Source: Bacillota bacterium
GTDB taxonomy: Bacteria > Bacillota > UBA4882 > UBA10575
NCBI GenBank assembly: GCA_012727895.1
Contig: JAAYGG010000109.1
Span: 1 to 33,076, forward strand
DNA length: 33,076 nucleotides
Reading direction: 5' to 3'
Shown here: positions 14,498-23,619 of the stretch, one piece after another
Numbering within the stretch: the stretch's first letter is position 1
Layout of the letters: every line of letters starts with the position of its first letter
Notes under the pieces: generated by a model
What the model was told of the DNA's origin: nothing
Databases searched by the model: none
The model's input: only the letters and a program-made list of their open reading frames with translations
Made by a program: the position numbers and the translations under genes

Positions 14498-15223
14498 ATG
14501 AAAATGCCCCGACTGCGCAGTGAAGAGTATAGCAGGAGAGAAGAGCAGTTTAGAAAAGAAGAGCACCTGGTCCGTTCTTATCTCAGCCTTCGCAAGGCTG
14601 TGGGGATTATCGGGATCGGGTTGCCCTTCGCCCTGGCAATTGGCGGATTACTCCTGGGTATTGACTTGCAGGAGTCAATCAGTGCCTATTACCATACGGA
14701 GATGCGGGATCTCTTCGTCGGCAGCCTTTGCGCAATTGCCGTATTCTTATGGTCGTACCGCGGCTTCGAACGGAGAGACGAGATCGCCGCCAACCTGGCC
14801 TGCATCTTTGCCCTGGGAGTGGCGTTTTTTCCCACTGCTCCCGGCCCGGAAACCCCCGGGTTTCCTGTTATTTGCGGGCGGTTGCATTCGTTCTTTACAG
14901 CCGGTTTTTTTCTCACCCTGGTCTATTTCTGTCTTTTCCTTTTTCGCCTTAGTGACCAGGAAAAACCGACCGGGGAAAAATTCGTCCGCAATTTAATCTA
15001 CTTGCTCTGCGGTTACGCGATGATTGCCTGCCTTATTCTTATTGGGATTGTCAATATTCCGGCGATTGCCCTGTTAGTCCGTGCCTACAAGCCTGTCTTC
15101 TGGCTTGAAGCCTGCGCCATAATCTCCTTTGGCGTCTCCTGGTTCGTAAAGGGCGAGGCAATTTTGAAGGACCGTACTTTGCCGGTGACAACCCGGTTGG
15201 TTGCGCCGCGGATACCCGTGTAA
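14498..15223 (+). CDS. Multi-pass membrane protein of unrecognised family
   Basis: I cannot name this 241-residue protein. It starts with a charged cytoplasmic segment (about 30 residues), followed by around six hydrophobic segments (near 34-54, 69-86, 96-112, 128-147, 165-192 and 200-215). Distinctive polar motifs lie between them: SAYYHTEMRDLFVG after the first segment and SYRGFERRDEIAA after the second. These conserved-looking His, Tyr, Asp and Arg residues suggest a ligand site at the membrane face. It begins 28 bases after the kinase stop with AAGAGG four bases before the ATG; a second ATG six bases on is also possible. Close spacing suggests co-transcription with the kinase, perhaps as its membrane partner, which is inference. 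Confidence 0.75.
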   Translation: MKMPRLRSEEYSRREEQFRKEEHLVRSYLSLRKAVGIIGIGLPFALAIGGLLLGIDLQESISAYYHTEMRDLFVGSLCAIAVFLWSYRGFERRDEIAANLACIFALGVAFFPTAPGPETPGFPVICGRLHSFFTAGFFLTLVYFCLFLFRLSDQEKPTGEKFVRNLIYLLCGYAMIACLILIGIVNIPAIALLVRAYKPVFWLEACAIISFGVSWFVKGEAILKDRTLPVTTRLVAPRIPV

Positions 15224-15429
15224 AAAATGCCCGTACTTGCCGGGAGGAAATAGACAGCACCCTGTGGTATTATTAAAAAAAACTCTTTGCTGAAAGGAGA
15301 GGACCAATTAACCATCCCCTGTACGTACTGGTGCTTTTTTCCGCTGCTGGAGAATGCTATCTTCACCCCGGGCAACTGCTGCCAGTTTGACGTACCGCCA
15401 AAGATGATCCAAAAAAAGTCGAAAAGGAA

Positions 15430-17196
15430 GTGAGGATCTTGACCGGAAGAAAAAAGGCAGTGTTATTCATTATAACGCTGCTTTTCTTTTTTCTTTTCCT
15501 GGAAACACCAACCCCGCAAGTACTGCAGGCGGGGGAGGAAGAACCGGCGGTCCGGGAGAAAGACGGGGTTTTATGGGCCGGCAAGGCTTGGGCCACCAGA
15601 ATCGGCAACCTAAGGCTGGCCTATTTTACTGGTTCTCCGGAAGAGATCGGCGCGCAAATGTTTCACCTGGTGGTGGCGCCGGAGTTTGAGAAAATGACGG
15701 AATCATTCGCCATCATTAAAAAGCAGGGCTTGAGTGGAGGCTTTTTTGCCCGGGCTTTTAAGAACTTCTATGCGCAGTTCAAATTTATCCCCACGTTTAA
15801 ACGGCATATCCCCAGGGAATACCTGAGGGAACTTGAGGGGTTCGCCCGGGCTTCCGGTGCTCCCCGGCCGGGAAGGGTTGTTAATGACCTTTTGCTGGGC
15901 AATGCTTGGCAGGATATAGGCCAGGTCTATGGTGGGTGTTCCTTCTTTGCCGTTTGGGGAGAAGCCGCCGGTAATGGGGAGATGTTGATCGGCCGTAATC
16001 TGGATTATTCCGGGTTGGCGCAATTGGCAGAGCTACAATCGGTTAATTTTTACGAACCTGAATCCGGGTACAGGTTTGTGACGGTGAATTACCCCTCAAT
16101 GGTCGGGCTCATGCACGGTATGAATGAAAAAGGTATTGTCATTGCCAAGGCCTATTCCACTGTCGTCCCTGAGGACACAACCGTAGACGGGGTACCTTTT
16201 ACGATTATGCTCCGGCATGCTTTGCAATATGGGGGGAGTATTGACGAAGTAATTGACATAATAAAAAATACCCCGCGGACCGTCGGTTTAAACATCTTGG
16301 TGGCCGATGCCGCCCGCCGGGAAGCAGTGGTCCTGGAGGTTTCTGCTTACCGGATGACTGTTCGCCACGCGGATAGTAGTACGGGCGTTAACTTTATCTA
16401 TGGCGCCAACCGGTTTTTAACCCCGTATCTTAAGGAATACCAGAAAGCAGGCTGGATCTCCTCGGCCTTCCGGGAAAGCCGTTTCGAAAGGCTGAAGCAG
16501 GTTTTTTTGCATGGGTTTAAGGTGGAGGATGCCGTCCGGATTTTACGGGATAAAGGAACAGATGATCCGGATTCGCCGGTTTTTTTACCTTCTATCCAAA
16601 ACCATGCCACTATCTCCAGTATGGTCTTTGACCCTGCTCGTCTGGAACTCTGGGTTAGCGCACCCGGCGGTTTCTTGACCACGGATCAGATTTTTACTGG
16701 CCTCTCCGCAGCCGAGGTTTGGCGGACCGGGCAACCGCCTTCTCCGGTTGGCTATATCCCCGCCACAGAGACCACGCCGGTGGTGCGTGTCTGGCAACAG
16801 GTGATGACCGCTGCCGGGGAGGTTTCCGAAGAAAGAAGAAAAGAGCTTCTCATGCCGGTGGTAGAGCGCTACCCGGCTGCCGGATTCCCCCTGTGCTTAC
16901 TTGGTGCGGCCTGCCTACGGACTGGCGAGGTGCAAGCCGCCATCGGCTATTTGGAGCAATGCGTCACCCGTGCCAGCTTGCCGGATCCCTATTATTTACT
17001 GGCTGTCCACGCCTGGCTGGGTGTAGCTTACGACACTTTAGGCCGTAGAGAACAGGCCTTGCAACATTACCAGGCCGGCCTGGAAGTTAAATTATTGGAA
17101 GATGCCGGTCCTATGCTTCCGCAGATCTGCCGGGCCGGGCTCAGGTATCCGCTGCGTATTGATGAAAAAGGCCAAATTACAAAGGCAAACCCTTAG
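15430..17196 (+). CDS. Exported C45-type Ntn hydrolase (AAT-like) with TPR-like tail
   Basis: The 588-residue protein has an N-terminal signal sequence or anchor (hydrophobic residues about 10-25). The middle resembles the C45 / acyl-CoA:6-aminopenicillanate acyltransferase family of self-processing N-terminal nucleophile hydrolases. The probable nucleophile is C170 in YGGCSFFAVWG, followed by the typical GRNLDYSG, MHGMNEKGI and NILVADAARREAVVLE motifs. Residues 30-169 would then be the propeptide. The last 130 residues contain helical repeats resembling TPRs (for example LGVAYDTLGRREQALQHYQ). The start may be GTG at 15430 or TTG at 15439; ribosome-site spacing favours the latter slightly. 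The gene ends about 45 bases before an Omp85-type gene, so the two may act together in the envelope. The substrate is probably an amide of unknown nature. Confidence 0.82.
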   Translation: MRILTGRKKAVLFIITLLFFFLFLETPTPQVLQAGEEEPAVREKDGVLWAGKAWATRIGNLRLAYFTGSPEEIGAQMFHLVVAPEFEKMTESFAIIKKQGLSGGFFARAFKNFYAQFKFIPTFKRHIPREYLRELEGFARASGAPRPGRVVNDLLLGNAWQDIGQVYGGCSFFAVWGEAAGNGEMLIGRNLDYSGLAQLAELQSVNFYEPESGYRFVTVNYPSMVGLMHGMNEKGIVIAKAYSTVVPEDTTVDGVPFTIMLRHALQYGGSIDEVIDIIKNTPRTVGLNILVADAARREAVVLEVSAYRMTVRHADSSTGVNFIYGANRFLTPYLKEYQKAGWISSAFRESRFERLKQVFLHGFKVEDAVRILRDKGTDDPDSPVFLPSIQNHATISSMVFDPARLELWVSAPGGFLTTDQIFTGLSAAEVWRTGQPPSPVGYIPATETTPVVRVWQQVMTAAGEVSEERRKELLMPVVERYPAAGFPLCLLGAACLRTGEVQAAIGYLEQCVTRASLPDPYYLLAVHAWLGVAYDTLGRREQALQHYQAGLEVKLLEDAGPMLPQICRAGLRYPLRIDEKGQITKANP

Positions 17197-17240
17197 GGCG
17201 GTTTATTGATATTGACTCGATGCAAATTGAGGTGAATAAA

Positions 17241-18515
17241 TTGGCGCGATTTATATTGAAACAATGCAATTTAAACCGGTTCATACTGGGACAAACCCAT
17301 TTCTATGTCTTTTTTATTGCCGTAGCGATTGTCACATGCTTGTTTTCTTCTTCTGTACCTGCAGAAGCGGCTGGCGTTGCGACCGGTGGCTCCCGGATCA
17401 GCGAAATAATAATCCTTGGTAACAGCCGGACCAGTGATGAGGTAATACTGAGACAGCTGCCTTTTTCTCCGGGCGATGACTGGCGGGATGGGTACCTGGA
17501 TCTGACACTTACCCGTCTTGAAGCCATGAATTGTTTCGACCCCCTCTCCTTACGTGTTATAACAGAGCCTTTACCCGGCGGTGATCTCCGGGTGGTGGTG
17601 AGGGCGAGTGATACCCATATTCTCTACCTTGATCCTCTGGAGTTTTTTATTATCAACATGCAAAATCTCTTTTCCAACTACTACACACAGACCTTTTATA
17701 ATCCCTTTGGTACCGGACTGAACCTCACTGCCGGCGGCGGATGGGGCGCCAACCCCTGGATCAGCCTGGGATTCAGTCAATCCCTTTCTAACGGGTGGTT
17801 CCTGAAGGGAAATATAGAATGGTCCAAAAATCACAGGCGATTTTATCCTTTTAACGACCCGCCCGGTTTCTCCAGTACCGGCTTTTTCACCGGTATTTCT
17901 CTCCTGCGCTATGCTTTTGGTGATTGTGAGTACGGGGGGACAATTAATTACAGTCCTGTCCAGGTGAGCGTTGACGGGGTGGAAAGTCTGAGCCAGGCTT
18001 ATTTAAGCATTGGCCCTGATTTTAAGTGGTCCGGGTGGCTTGAGTGCCGGCTGGCTCTCCGTTACGCTTTGGATTTGGCCGGAAACTTCTCTTCTTACCC
18101 GGCGGCAAGTACCGTTTTTCTCCGCCGCCAACCTATAGGGAAGGATGAATTTTTTACCACCCTTTACGCTGGATATATGGGAAAATCTGCGCCCCTTAAC
18201 CGCCGGTTTGTCATCGGTGGTTTTGGTTCCGTACCGCTCCGCGGTTTTTCTCCGGCATTTACCGGCCATACCTATCTGAGCGCTTCTTTGGAATACAGGC
18301 ATCTCTTGTCCAGGAATTCCTGGCTGCTGGCTTTTGTCGATTACGGGCGGGCCTGGTCTGATCATGAAAGGACCACAGGATATGATTGGGAATCCGGCGC
18401 CGGTGTTGGGTTGGCGGTTGGGACTCCTTTGGGTTACCCTGTCCGGTTAGACCTGGCCTACGGGCTGACCGGCGGGGGATTGGCATGGCGGATATGGATG
18501 GATAAGAATTTCTGA
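17241..18515 (+). CDS. Omp85/BamA-TamA-family outer membrane protein with one POTRA domain
   Basis: This 424-residue protein has a long N-terminal region with a hydrophobic signal (ending near VPAEA), one POTRA-like domain (starting RISEIIILGNSRTSDEVILRQL, about 75 residues), and a barrel of about 285 residues. The barrel has many aromatic alternating strands, the GGFGSVPLRGF motif corresponding to the loop-6 (V/I)RGF/Y motif of Omp85 proteins, and a C-terminal Phe. GAGGTGA at 17229-17235 points to the TTG start at 17241; an in-frame ATG at 17220 lacks a ribosome site. Full BamA has five POTRA domains, so this is a reduced paralogue and its cargo is unknown. It implies an outer membrane. It follows the C45-type hydrolase closely. 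Confidence 0.83.
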   Translation: MARFILKQCNLNRFILGQTHFYVFFIAVAIVTCLFSSSVPAEAAGVATGGSRISEIIILGNSRTSDEVILRQLPFSPGDDWRDGYLDLTLTRLEAMNCFDPLSLRVITEPLPGGDLRVVVRASDTHILYLDPLEFFIINMQNLFSNYYTQTFYNPFGTGLNLTAGGGWGANPWISLGFSQSLSNGWFLKGNIEWSKNHRRFYPFNDPPGFSSTGFFTGISLLRYAFGDCEYGGTINYSPVQVSVDGVESLSQAYLSIGPDFKWSGWLECRLALRYALDLAGNFSSYPAASTVFLRRQPIGKDEFFTTLYAGYMGKSAPLNRRFVIGGFGSVPLRGFSPAFTGHTYLSASLEYRHLLSRNSWLLAFVDYGRAWSDHERTTGYDWESGAGVGLAVGTPLGYPVRLDLAYGLTGGGLAWRIWMDKNF

Positions 18516-18644
18516 GTGTTTAAGGATTGAACAACCGGGCTCAAAAGAAGGAAATCCATGCCACTCTGGAGTATCATTTAGCATATAAGCGGCAAAAGCT
18601 AGAGACAGGAGTTGAAGAAGAAAACAGAAGAGGAGAGGAAGACT

Positions 18645-19355
18645 GTGTTCGACCCCAAAGCACTGTATAAAATCGGCTACGGCCTTTACATCATCACATC
18701 AAAAGAAGAAGATAAATCGCGCGCACGAGCGCGCTATAACGGCCAGATCGCCAATGCGGTGATGCAGGTCTCGGCACAACCGGTGATTATTGCTGTGGGG
18801 ATCAATAAACAGAATCTTACCCACCAATTTATCACCAGCAGCGGGCATTTTGCCATTTCCGTTTTGGAACAGGAAACCCCGTTTCCCTTGATTCAACGGT
18901 TTGGTTTCAAGAGCGGAAGGGATATTGACAAGCTCGCCGGGGTGGGGTACGGGTGGACCGCTGAGCAAGTGCCGTATATTACCGACCACAGCCTGGCTTA
19001 TATGGCAGCCACCACAATCGGGACGGCGGATGCGGGGACCCACACCCTCTTCCTGGGCGAGGTAACGGAGGCGTCAATCCTCAAAGAAGGGGTTCCCATG
19101 ACCTATGACTACTATCACCGGGTATTACGGAGAGGAGTGCCGTCAACGGCGCCGACTTTCCAGTTCACTGAAGAAAAGAAGGGGGTGCAGTCGGTGGATA
19201 AATACATCTGTACGGTCTGTGGTTATATTTATGACCCGGAGGCCGGGGATCCCGAGAATAACATAGCTCCGGGGACGCCGTTCAATGAATTACCCGACGA
19301 CTGGGTATGCCCGGTTTGCGGCGCCGGCAAAGACATGTTTAATAAAGGGATTTAA
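18645..19355 (+). CDS. hrb: High-molecular-weight rubredoxin (flavin reductase-like domain plus rubredoxin)
   Basis: The 236-residue cytoplasmic protein joins an FMN-binding flavin reductase-like domain (about 1-165; start [15 protein letters not shown]) to a C-terminal rubredoxin (from about 185) with both iron-binding pairs, [10 protein letters not shown] and [11 protein letters not shown]. This is the architecture of Hrb from Moorella, which uses NADH to pass electrons to the flavodiiron protein FprA for NO or O2 reduction. The GTG start at 18645 is chosen because AGGAGAGG at 18631-18638 is spaced six bases from it and the family begins just there; an upstream TTG lacks a site. No fprA gene is adjacent, so the electron acceptor is elsewhere. 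It fits an anaerobe defending itself against O2 or NO. Confidence 0.92.
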
Positions 19356-22767: not shown

Positions 22768-23619
22768 CTACATTGACGGTATGCAGATAATCTGGCCAAT
22801 CTGCAACCGGTCCGGATCCACGTTGGGATTGGCCCGGATTAAATCATCTACGGTTATTCCTGCCCTTCTGGCGATACTGAAGAAGGTGTCACCCGCCCTG
22901 ATTATATATGGGGTGGTACCGGAAGGACAGGGTTGCTCGCCGGTCATGGGGATGCAGAGGGTCTGGCCGATCTGGAGCCGGTCCGGATCTACATTGGGAT
23001 TGGCCCTTTGGATTGCGTCCACCGTTGTCCCAAACCGCCGTGCCAGGGTGAAGAAGGTATCACCGGCACGGACCGTATAGGCAAAGGTCCCCGGCGGACA
23101 AGGGCTTGGTACACCAGGAATACAGATGATTTGGCCAATCTGTAATCTGTCCGGATCCACGTCCGGATTGGCCCTTTGGATCGCATCCACTGTTGTGCCA
23201 AACCGTCGTGCCAAGGTGAAGAAGGTGTCACCGGCACGGATCGTATAGGCGAAGGTTCCCGGAGGGCAAGGGGTTGGTACCGTATCGCGGGGGATACAGA
23301 TAATCTGTCCGATCTGCAATCTGTCCGGGTCCACACCAGGGTTGGCTCTCTGAATGGCTCCGACGGTTGTGTTAAACCTTTGCGCCAGAGAGAAGAAGGT
23401 GTCGCCGGCACGGACTGTATATTCGAAGGTTCCTGGCGGGCAGTGAGTCGGCGTATCGCCGGGGATACAGATGACTTGACCAATCTGTAACCGGTCCGGA
23501 TTCACACCAGGGTTGGCTCTCTGAATGGCTTCCACGGTTGTGTTAAACCTTTGGGCTAGAGAGAAAAAGGTGTCACCGGCACGAATGGTATATTCAAAGG
23601 TTCCTGCAGGACATTGCAT
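22768..23619 (-). CDS. Five-module LysM protein with paired cysteines, spore-coat-like
   Basis: The 283-residue protein is made almost wholly of five LysM modules of 55-60 residues, each starting with C-P-x-G-T and ending in C-I-P, with core R-A-G-D-T-F-F and P-D-R-L-Q-I-G-Q. LysM binds peptidoglycan or chitin sugars; the Cys at each end could form a disulfide per module. Modules 1 and 2 share one variant (FSLAQRFNTTV) and modules 3 and 4 another (FTLARRFGTTV), with module 5 diverged. There is no signal peptide, as in SafA-type coat and cortex assembly proteins made in the mother cell. AGGAGGTGA before the ATG fixes the start. A spore role is inference. Confidence 0.88.
   Translation of the reverse strand: MQCPAGTFEYTIRAGDTFFSLAQRFNTTVEAIQRANPGVNPDRLQIGQVICIPGDTPTHCPPGTFEYTVRAGDTFFSLAQRFNTTVGAIQRANPGVDPDRLQIGQIICIPRDTVPTPCPPGTFAYTIRAGDTFFTLARRFGTTVDAIQRANPDVDPDRLQIGQIICIPGVPSPCPPGTFAYTVRAGDTFFTLARRFGTTVDAIQRANPNVDPDRLQIGQTLCIPMTGEQPCPSGTTPYIIRAGDTFFSIARRAGITVDDLIRANPNVDPDRLQIGQIICIPSM

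Follow-up and report, generated by a model that had tools for sequence, protein, structure and literature searches.

Does an exported enzyme encoded directly in front of an outer-membrane barrel work together with that barrel, and if so, what does the barrel do for the enzyme? The question is raised by two genes in the window analysed here, a stretch of 33,076 nucleotides that makes up the whole of contig C22 of a Bacillota genome (G000; 2.3 Mb, 97% complete). An earlier note had described an exported C45-type enzyme lying directly before a reduced Omp85 barrel, and we found both open reading frames in place with domains that match this description. The same genome encodes a separate BamA (C88:18420-19211) within a TamB-BamA-OmpH cluster that resembles the cluster described for diderm Firmicutes (PMC5007114), and an outer membrane is therefore expected in the host, an uncultured diderm member of the Bacillota. 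Scans for promoters and terminators across positions 15150-18700 returned sites no more numerous than those in shuffled sequences. Further along the window, a LysM-type gene on the minus strand (22768-23619) contains internal DNA repeats, which align with the G002 ortholog of the gene in several registers.

The first gene of the pair (ORF1) comprises the following features:
15414 to 15438, plus strand: Shine-Dalgarno region (GGAAGTGAGG) of the hydrolase gene, from blastn boundaries and junction sequences
15430 to 17196, plus strand: exported C45-family Ntn hydrolase with a TPR tail, 588 amino acids, from NF040521, PF03417, TPR_2 and orthologs
15430 to 15534, plus strand: signal sequence, about residues 1-35, read from the sequence by its hydrophobic core and conservation in orthologs
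15937 to 15939, plus strand: Cys170, the predicted nucleophile, with predicted self-cleavage directly before it, from its invariance and alignment with NAAA
15937 to 16749, plus strand: C45 catalytic (beta-chain) domain with a GRNLDY motif, from profile match and alignment
16843 to 17091, plus strand: TPR tail, about residues 472-554 (around 488-554 by the domain matches), from a Pfam match and profile comparison
17092 to 17193, plus strand: conserved C-terminal peptide (GLRxPLxIxEKGQI...) after the TPRs, from ortholog and fusion alignments

The assignment of ORF1 is drawn from its match to NF040521 (E=4.3e-55), which at 187 bits exceeds the curated cut-off of 85 bits, along with matches to PF03417 (AAT; E=1.7e-20) and TPR_2 (1.9e-6), and the protein is 79-84% identical to its orthologs. 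Its start may lie elsewhere, as a TTG in the same frame at 15439 is better placed for the GGAAGTGAGG Shine-Dalgarno. Cys170 is invariant across all family members aligned, and it aligns with the N-terminal residue (residue 1) of the beta chain of mature N-acylethanolamine acid amidase (NAAA; 6dy3_B, E=8e-6), which is the position predicted for it in a self-cleaving Ntn enzyme. The protein is thus predicted to cut itself before Cys170, and the NAAA-like nucleophile region suggests acyl amides as the substrate class.

The junction and the second gene (ORF2) are laid out as follows:
17197 to 17219, plus strand: intergenic junction, from junction sequences
17220 to 18515, plus strand: Omp85-superfamily outer-membrane protein with one POTRA and a barrel, 431 amino acids, from profile matches
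17220 to 17372, plus strand: signal sequence, about residues 1-51 (AEA/AGVA), read from the sequence
17388 to 17609, plus strand: single POTRA, about residues 57-130, from PF07244 and hhalign to BamA's last POTRA
17622 to 18512, plus strand: Omp85 barrel with a loop 6 type LRGF motif at 18237-18248 and a C-terminal Phe, from profile matches

In the pairs of G003, G004, G010 and G013, a strong, operon-like Shine-Dalgarno (AATAAGGGAGGTT) directly follows the first stop, and this element is degenerate in the window's own junction. The ORF2 start is likewise uncertain, with TTG 17241 a possible alternative, and the orthologs carry a short clean signal (MKRNLLSPFLLAAVTVISFLSFSIPTDA). The POTRA match to PF07244 (E=0.0028), which starts at residue 59, falls slightly below the Pfam cut-off, while homologs match over the full length of the model and the fused ones described below score above the cut-off; our POTRA-barrel profile (A8) matches 17388-17774. 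The barrel scores above the PF01103 cut-off in a genome-wide search (46 bits), TamA and BamA models match ORF2 at E~1e-11, and hhalign of ORF2 to the last POTRA and barrel of the BamAs of related bacteria gives E=2e-20. ORF2 therefore has two of the features that define the Omp85 superfamily, a homologous C-terminal barrel and at least one POTRA; a third is a barrel of 16 transmembrane strands. An AlphaFold2 model of the barrel from a two-sequence alignment gave no usable fold (pLDDT 28), and a scan for amphipathic barrel strands found 15 peaks against 13.8 +/- 1.9 in shuffles, which does not separate the real order from a shuffled one. We considered whether ORF2 is itself BamA or TamA and rejected this identity, as it has one POTRA only and the BamA of the genome, with its cluster, lies on C88. 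BamA has up to five POTRAs and TamA three.

Next, we asked whether the two genes keep company in relatives, using 15 other genomes of the window's family besides G000. Orthologs of both genes (73-84% identity) were found in five of the 15 and of neither in the remaining ten, and no ortholog of one gene without the other was found in G000 or the 15. The genes adjoin on the same strand in G000, G003, G004, G010 and G013, and a contig break splits the hydrolase gene in G002, the remaining part of the gene leading into the barrel gene. The pair is thus side by side in six genomes of three genera with differing flanks. More distant relatives are scattered through the family: G014 has only a distant relative of the barrel (28-29%), as do G011 and G012, where it carries a fused enzyme, and G007 has a distant C45 protein (27%). 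An exported hydrolase could have come to lie beside an unrelated Omp85 protein by chance, and the related barrel of G014, which lacks a C45 gene, would suit such an account. Six adjacent pairs in three genera, shared presence and absence, and different flanking genes argue against it.

The boundaries of similarity bear on the same issue. In blastn comparisons with the other genera, similarity is limited to 15414/15423-18511/18515, approximately from the first Shine-Dalgarno to the second stop. Flanking genes differ between genera, and the downstream genes are common only to G002, a genome of the same genus. Between genera, third-base identity at fourfold-degenerate sites is 0.66-0.70 for the hydrolase and 0.57-0.68 for the barrel, compared with 0.39-0.43 for BamA and 0.35-0.54 for two hydrogenase genes; the values given for G003 and G013, which belong to one genus, are 0.83-0.90 versus 0.41-0.46. 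As the synonymous sites of the pair are far more alike than those of BamA and the hydrogenase genes, the pair moves horizontally as a unit, and the simplest reading is that an exact two-gene cassette has spread by horizontal transfer. In G010 a transposase-like fragment, named by eye, lies immediately upstream of the pair. G003 contains a degraded hydrolase fragment with two stops (G003:C42:334-555) as well as an intact pair. A scan of public contigs returned two close relatives only, plus weak barrel matches in Gemmatimonadetes; our survey of homologs covers one bacterial phylum, Bacillota. Joint transfer, with similarity ending at the two ORFs, is a second point against chance proximity.

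A third comes from distant Bacillota in which enzyme and barrel form one protein. Single ORFs in which a C45-TPR enzyme of the hydrolase's own family continues into POTRA and barrel were identified in G035 (998 aa), G140 (~1000 aa) and G329 (~1026 aa), and in G161 the C45-TPR and POTRA-barrel halves lie at two contig ends, which is probably a fourth such fusion. The TPR segment of the fused proteins lies between enzyme and POTRA, and the hydrolase of the two-gene form ends at that point, its C-terminal peptide sitting, in the alignments, where the fused proteins continue into the POTRA; this placement makes the peptide a candidate docking segment. One further gene, an orphan C45-TPR gene in G285 (L170:2267-4087), has no adjoining barrel and ends where its fused homologs continue; a transposase-like ORF lies just downstream, and the orphan may be a former fusion that an insertion element interrupted. 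Although this gene, too, would suit chance proximity, that account is already contradicted by the natural fusions, of which there are three or four, and by the limits of the cassette, and we regard it as highly improbable. The conserved adjacency, whose absence the earlier note had named as a refutation, and the gene fusions in relatives bear out a functional pair, and we are nearly certain that enzyme and barrel are coupled. Judged from sequence comparison, the two very probably form a genuine machine with the enzyme mounted on the barrel, one member of a wider, apparently undescribed set.

To place the two forms relative to one another we built trees of 21-25 rows, some of which have long branches. 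In the POTRA-barrel tree, the barrels of the two-gene form group with transglutaminase-fused barrels and the stand-alone barrel of G014 (99/99), while the C45-fused barrels group with S41-fused barrels, and monophyly of all C45-associated barrels is rejected (AU p=5e-5). In the enzyme tree, a moderately supported branch (86/83) unites the barrel-linked C45 enzymes to the exclusion of other C45 proteins. As the barrels belong to two lineages and the enzymes group together, members of one enzyme family are linked to barrels of both lineages, within a single chain in one and through paired genes in the other. Our calculations thus show that the C45 enzyme changed barrel partner, and on these trees the link between enzyme and barrel formed, or was re-formed, at least twice.

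The C45 enzyme is also not the only passenger on barrels of this type. Single proteins joining an S41 peptidase to a POTRA and barrel (807-943 aa) were found in other Bacillota (G108, G119 and G081), and G011 and G012, both from the family to which the window belongs, each encode a protein joining a transglutaminase-like domain to a POTRA and barrel (720 and 695 aa), at these loci:
L125:1983-4406, L126:3049-5796 and L127:3287-6118: S41 peptidase-POTRA-barrel
L047:3187-5349 and L048:7744-9831: transglutaminase-like-POTRA-barrel

Patatin-POTRA-barrel proteins occur in the family and order of the window (G005 and G016), and the patatin of G016 aligns to that of PlpD at E=1.5e-56. A wider POTRA-barrel search with the A8 profile found no further type of passenger, its other matches resembling BamA by length.

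Several other proteins with barrel-like signals were encountered along the way. The window's genome has a second enzyme/barrel pair with overlapping genes (L134:4116-6952, minus strand, on G000:C119), comprising an exported 572-aa peptidase-MA-like protein with an HEVTH motif and a PD40 propeller, and a 374-aa Omp85 protein (PF01103 8e-10) without a POTRA match. Very weak C-terminal Omp85 signals were seen in an M1 peptidase of 1011 aa (L132:2-3034, G000:C90; E 0.05) and in a PD40 propeller protein of 969 aa (L133:2650-5556, G000:C148; E 0.24). G008 (L136:4533-5858) and G012 (L137:3475-4803) encode 442-aa proteins with an apparent TPR-like N-terminus and an Omp85-like barrel, of which that of G008 matches PF01103 weakly (E=0.002).

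How, then, might the enzyme use the barrel? The nearest described precedent is PlpD, which was initially regarded as secreting its enzyme (type Vd) and whose enzyme domain was later found to be periplasmic and docked on the POTRA (PMC11116518). Our best reading, which we hold with moderate confidence, is that the pair is a split PlpD-like system in which an amide hydrolase is held at the periplasmic face of the outer membrane. Sec would take both proteins into the periplasm, where the hydrolase would cut itself before Cys170 to give an active N-terminal-nucleophile amidase or acyltransferase and the host's own BamA would fold the Omp85 protein into the outer membrane. The TPR tail and the conserved C-terminal peptide would then attach to the single POTRA and so keep the enzyme on the inner side of the outer membrane, where it would act on acyl-amide substrates, be they lipid, lipoprotein or small molecule. 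Binding of the TPR tail to its partner barrel is plausible because, in the fused proteins, this is the very segment that separates the enzyme from the POTRA, and we prefer docking at the inner face because PlpD keeps its enzyme periplasmic against the POTRA. As a guide to location, PlpD is an analogy from a different phylum with a different enzyme in a covalently fused protein, and we infer TPR-POTRA docking, the periplasmic location and the substrate class of the hydrolase. The G285 gene counts against a split PlpD-like system, since a C45-TPR gene without an adjoining barrel implies that an unlinked form may work.

Alternatively, and closer to the export or delivery role that the earlier note suggested, the barrel could be a dedicated translocon that carries the hydrolase through the outer membrane and releases it at the cell surface or into the medium, in the manner of type Vb or of type Vd as first conceived, with the TPR tail or C-terminal peptide as the signal that targets the POTRA. 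The order of cargo then barrel, the separate signal peptides and the dedicated POTRA-barrel resemble TpsA/TpsB, a horizontally moving cassette fits cargo plus transporter, and type Vd was originally described as secretion (PMC4104836). The cargo here, however, is a globular Ntn hydrolase with TPRs and not a beta-helical TpsA with a TPS domain, the barrel has one POTRA and not two, homologs carry the enzyme covalently on the POTRA, and the PlpD enzyme stays inside (PMC11116518). We consider export possible but rather unlikely. Less probable again is a reading in which the hydrolase serves the barrel. The Omp85 protein would then be a specialised assembly factor that places clients in the outer membrane or passes them through it, and the enzyme attached to it would process those clients by modifying or deacylating them. 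PlpD aside, known Omp85 proteins have roles in the assembly or translocation of proteins (PMC11116518), and the S41 peptidases and transglutaminase-like domains carried by related barrels could likewise be processing clients, but no third conserved gene that might encode a client travels with the pair, and PlpD is given no assembly role in PMC11116518.

Returning to the split PlpD-like system, we tentatively suggest, as a doubtful extension, that one-POTRA barrels of diderm Bacillota are a general, exchangeable platform for C45, S41, transglutaminase-like and patatin enzymes, fused or supplied in trans through a mobile cassette, with the TPR or C-terminal tail as a portable address tag moved between barrel lineages; in its strongest form, the folded enzyme would also be exported. 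If true, enzyme-carrying Omp85 proteins would be a modular way to fix many hydrolases to the outer membrane and not a patatin speciality, and the two-gene form would be a natural experiment on how an enzyme finds its barrel. The fusions in relatives make the enzyme-on-barrel idea testable, and the pair bears on the open type Vd dispute over whether the enzyme is secreted or kept inside, for here the enzyme is non-covalent and its location directly readable.

PlpD-type and other N-terminally extended Omp85 proteins are already known, as the main text of PMC4104836 sets out. There, Heinz and Lithgow (2014) describe Omp85 subfamilies with N-terminal patatin, metallo (PF00149), WD40 and Lipo domains, and the proteins described here likewise place an extra domain before the barrel; C45 is not named, and the words 'peptidase' and 'transglutaminase' are absent from that main text. 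In the open-licence PMC literature, no paper turned up that describes C45-, S41- or transglutaminase-Omp85 proteins, or an enzyme and a one-POTRA barrel encoded by two genes. Considered as an enzyme, ORF1 is like C45 (AAT) and NAAA-type Ntn hydrolases in its predicted nucleophile Cys after a pro-region, its GRNLDY motif and its NF040521 match, and unlike them in its TPR tail and in being coupled to a barrel of the outer membrane. Like the pair, two-partner secretion (TpsA/TpsB, type Vb) has an adjacent exported partner and an Omp85-superfamily barrel, each with a signal peptide. Whereas type Vb has two POTRAs and a TpsB barrel, the pair has one POTRA, gives no ShlB match at E<=1 and, by the matches found, has a barrel closer to BamA/TamA than to FhaC; its ORF1 is a globular enzyme with TPRs, for which the Pfam scan gives AAT and TPR and no TPS domain. 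PlpD of Pseudomonas aeruginosa (type Vd) and FplA of Fusobacterium share the exported hydrolytic enzyme, single POTRA and Omp85 barrel. Unlike the patatin of PlpD, the enzyme of the pair is a C45 Ntn hydrolase (neither ORF1 nor ORF2 matches patatin) and is followed by a TPR segment; unlike its single polypeptide, the pair is encoded in six genomes by two genes, each with a signal peptide of its own, and is fused only in relatives; and its barrels are on a different branch. Carrying neither the patatin and single chain of PlpD nor the two POTRAs and TPS cargo of two-partner secretion, the pair is therefore a distinct variant.
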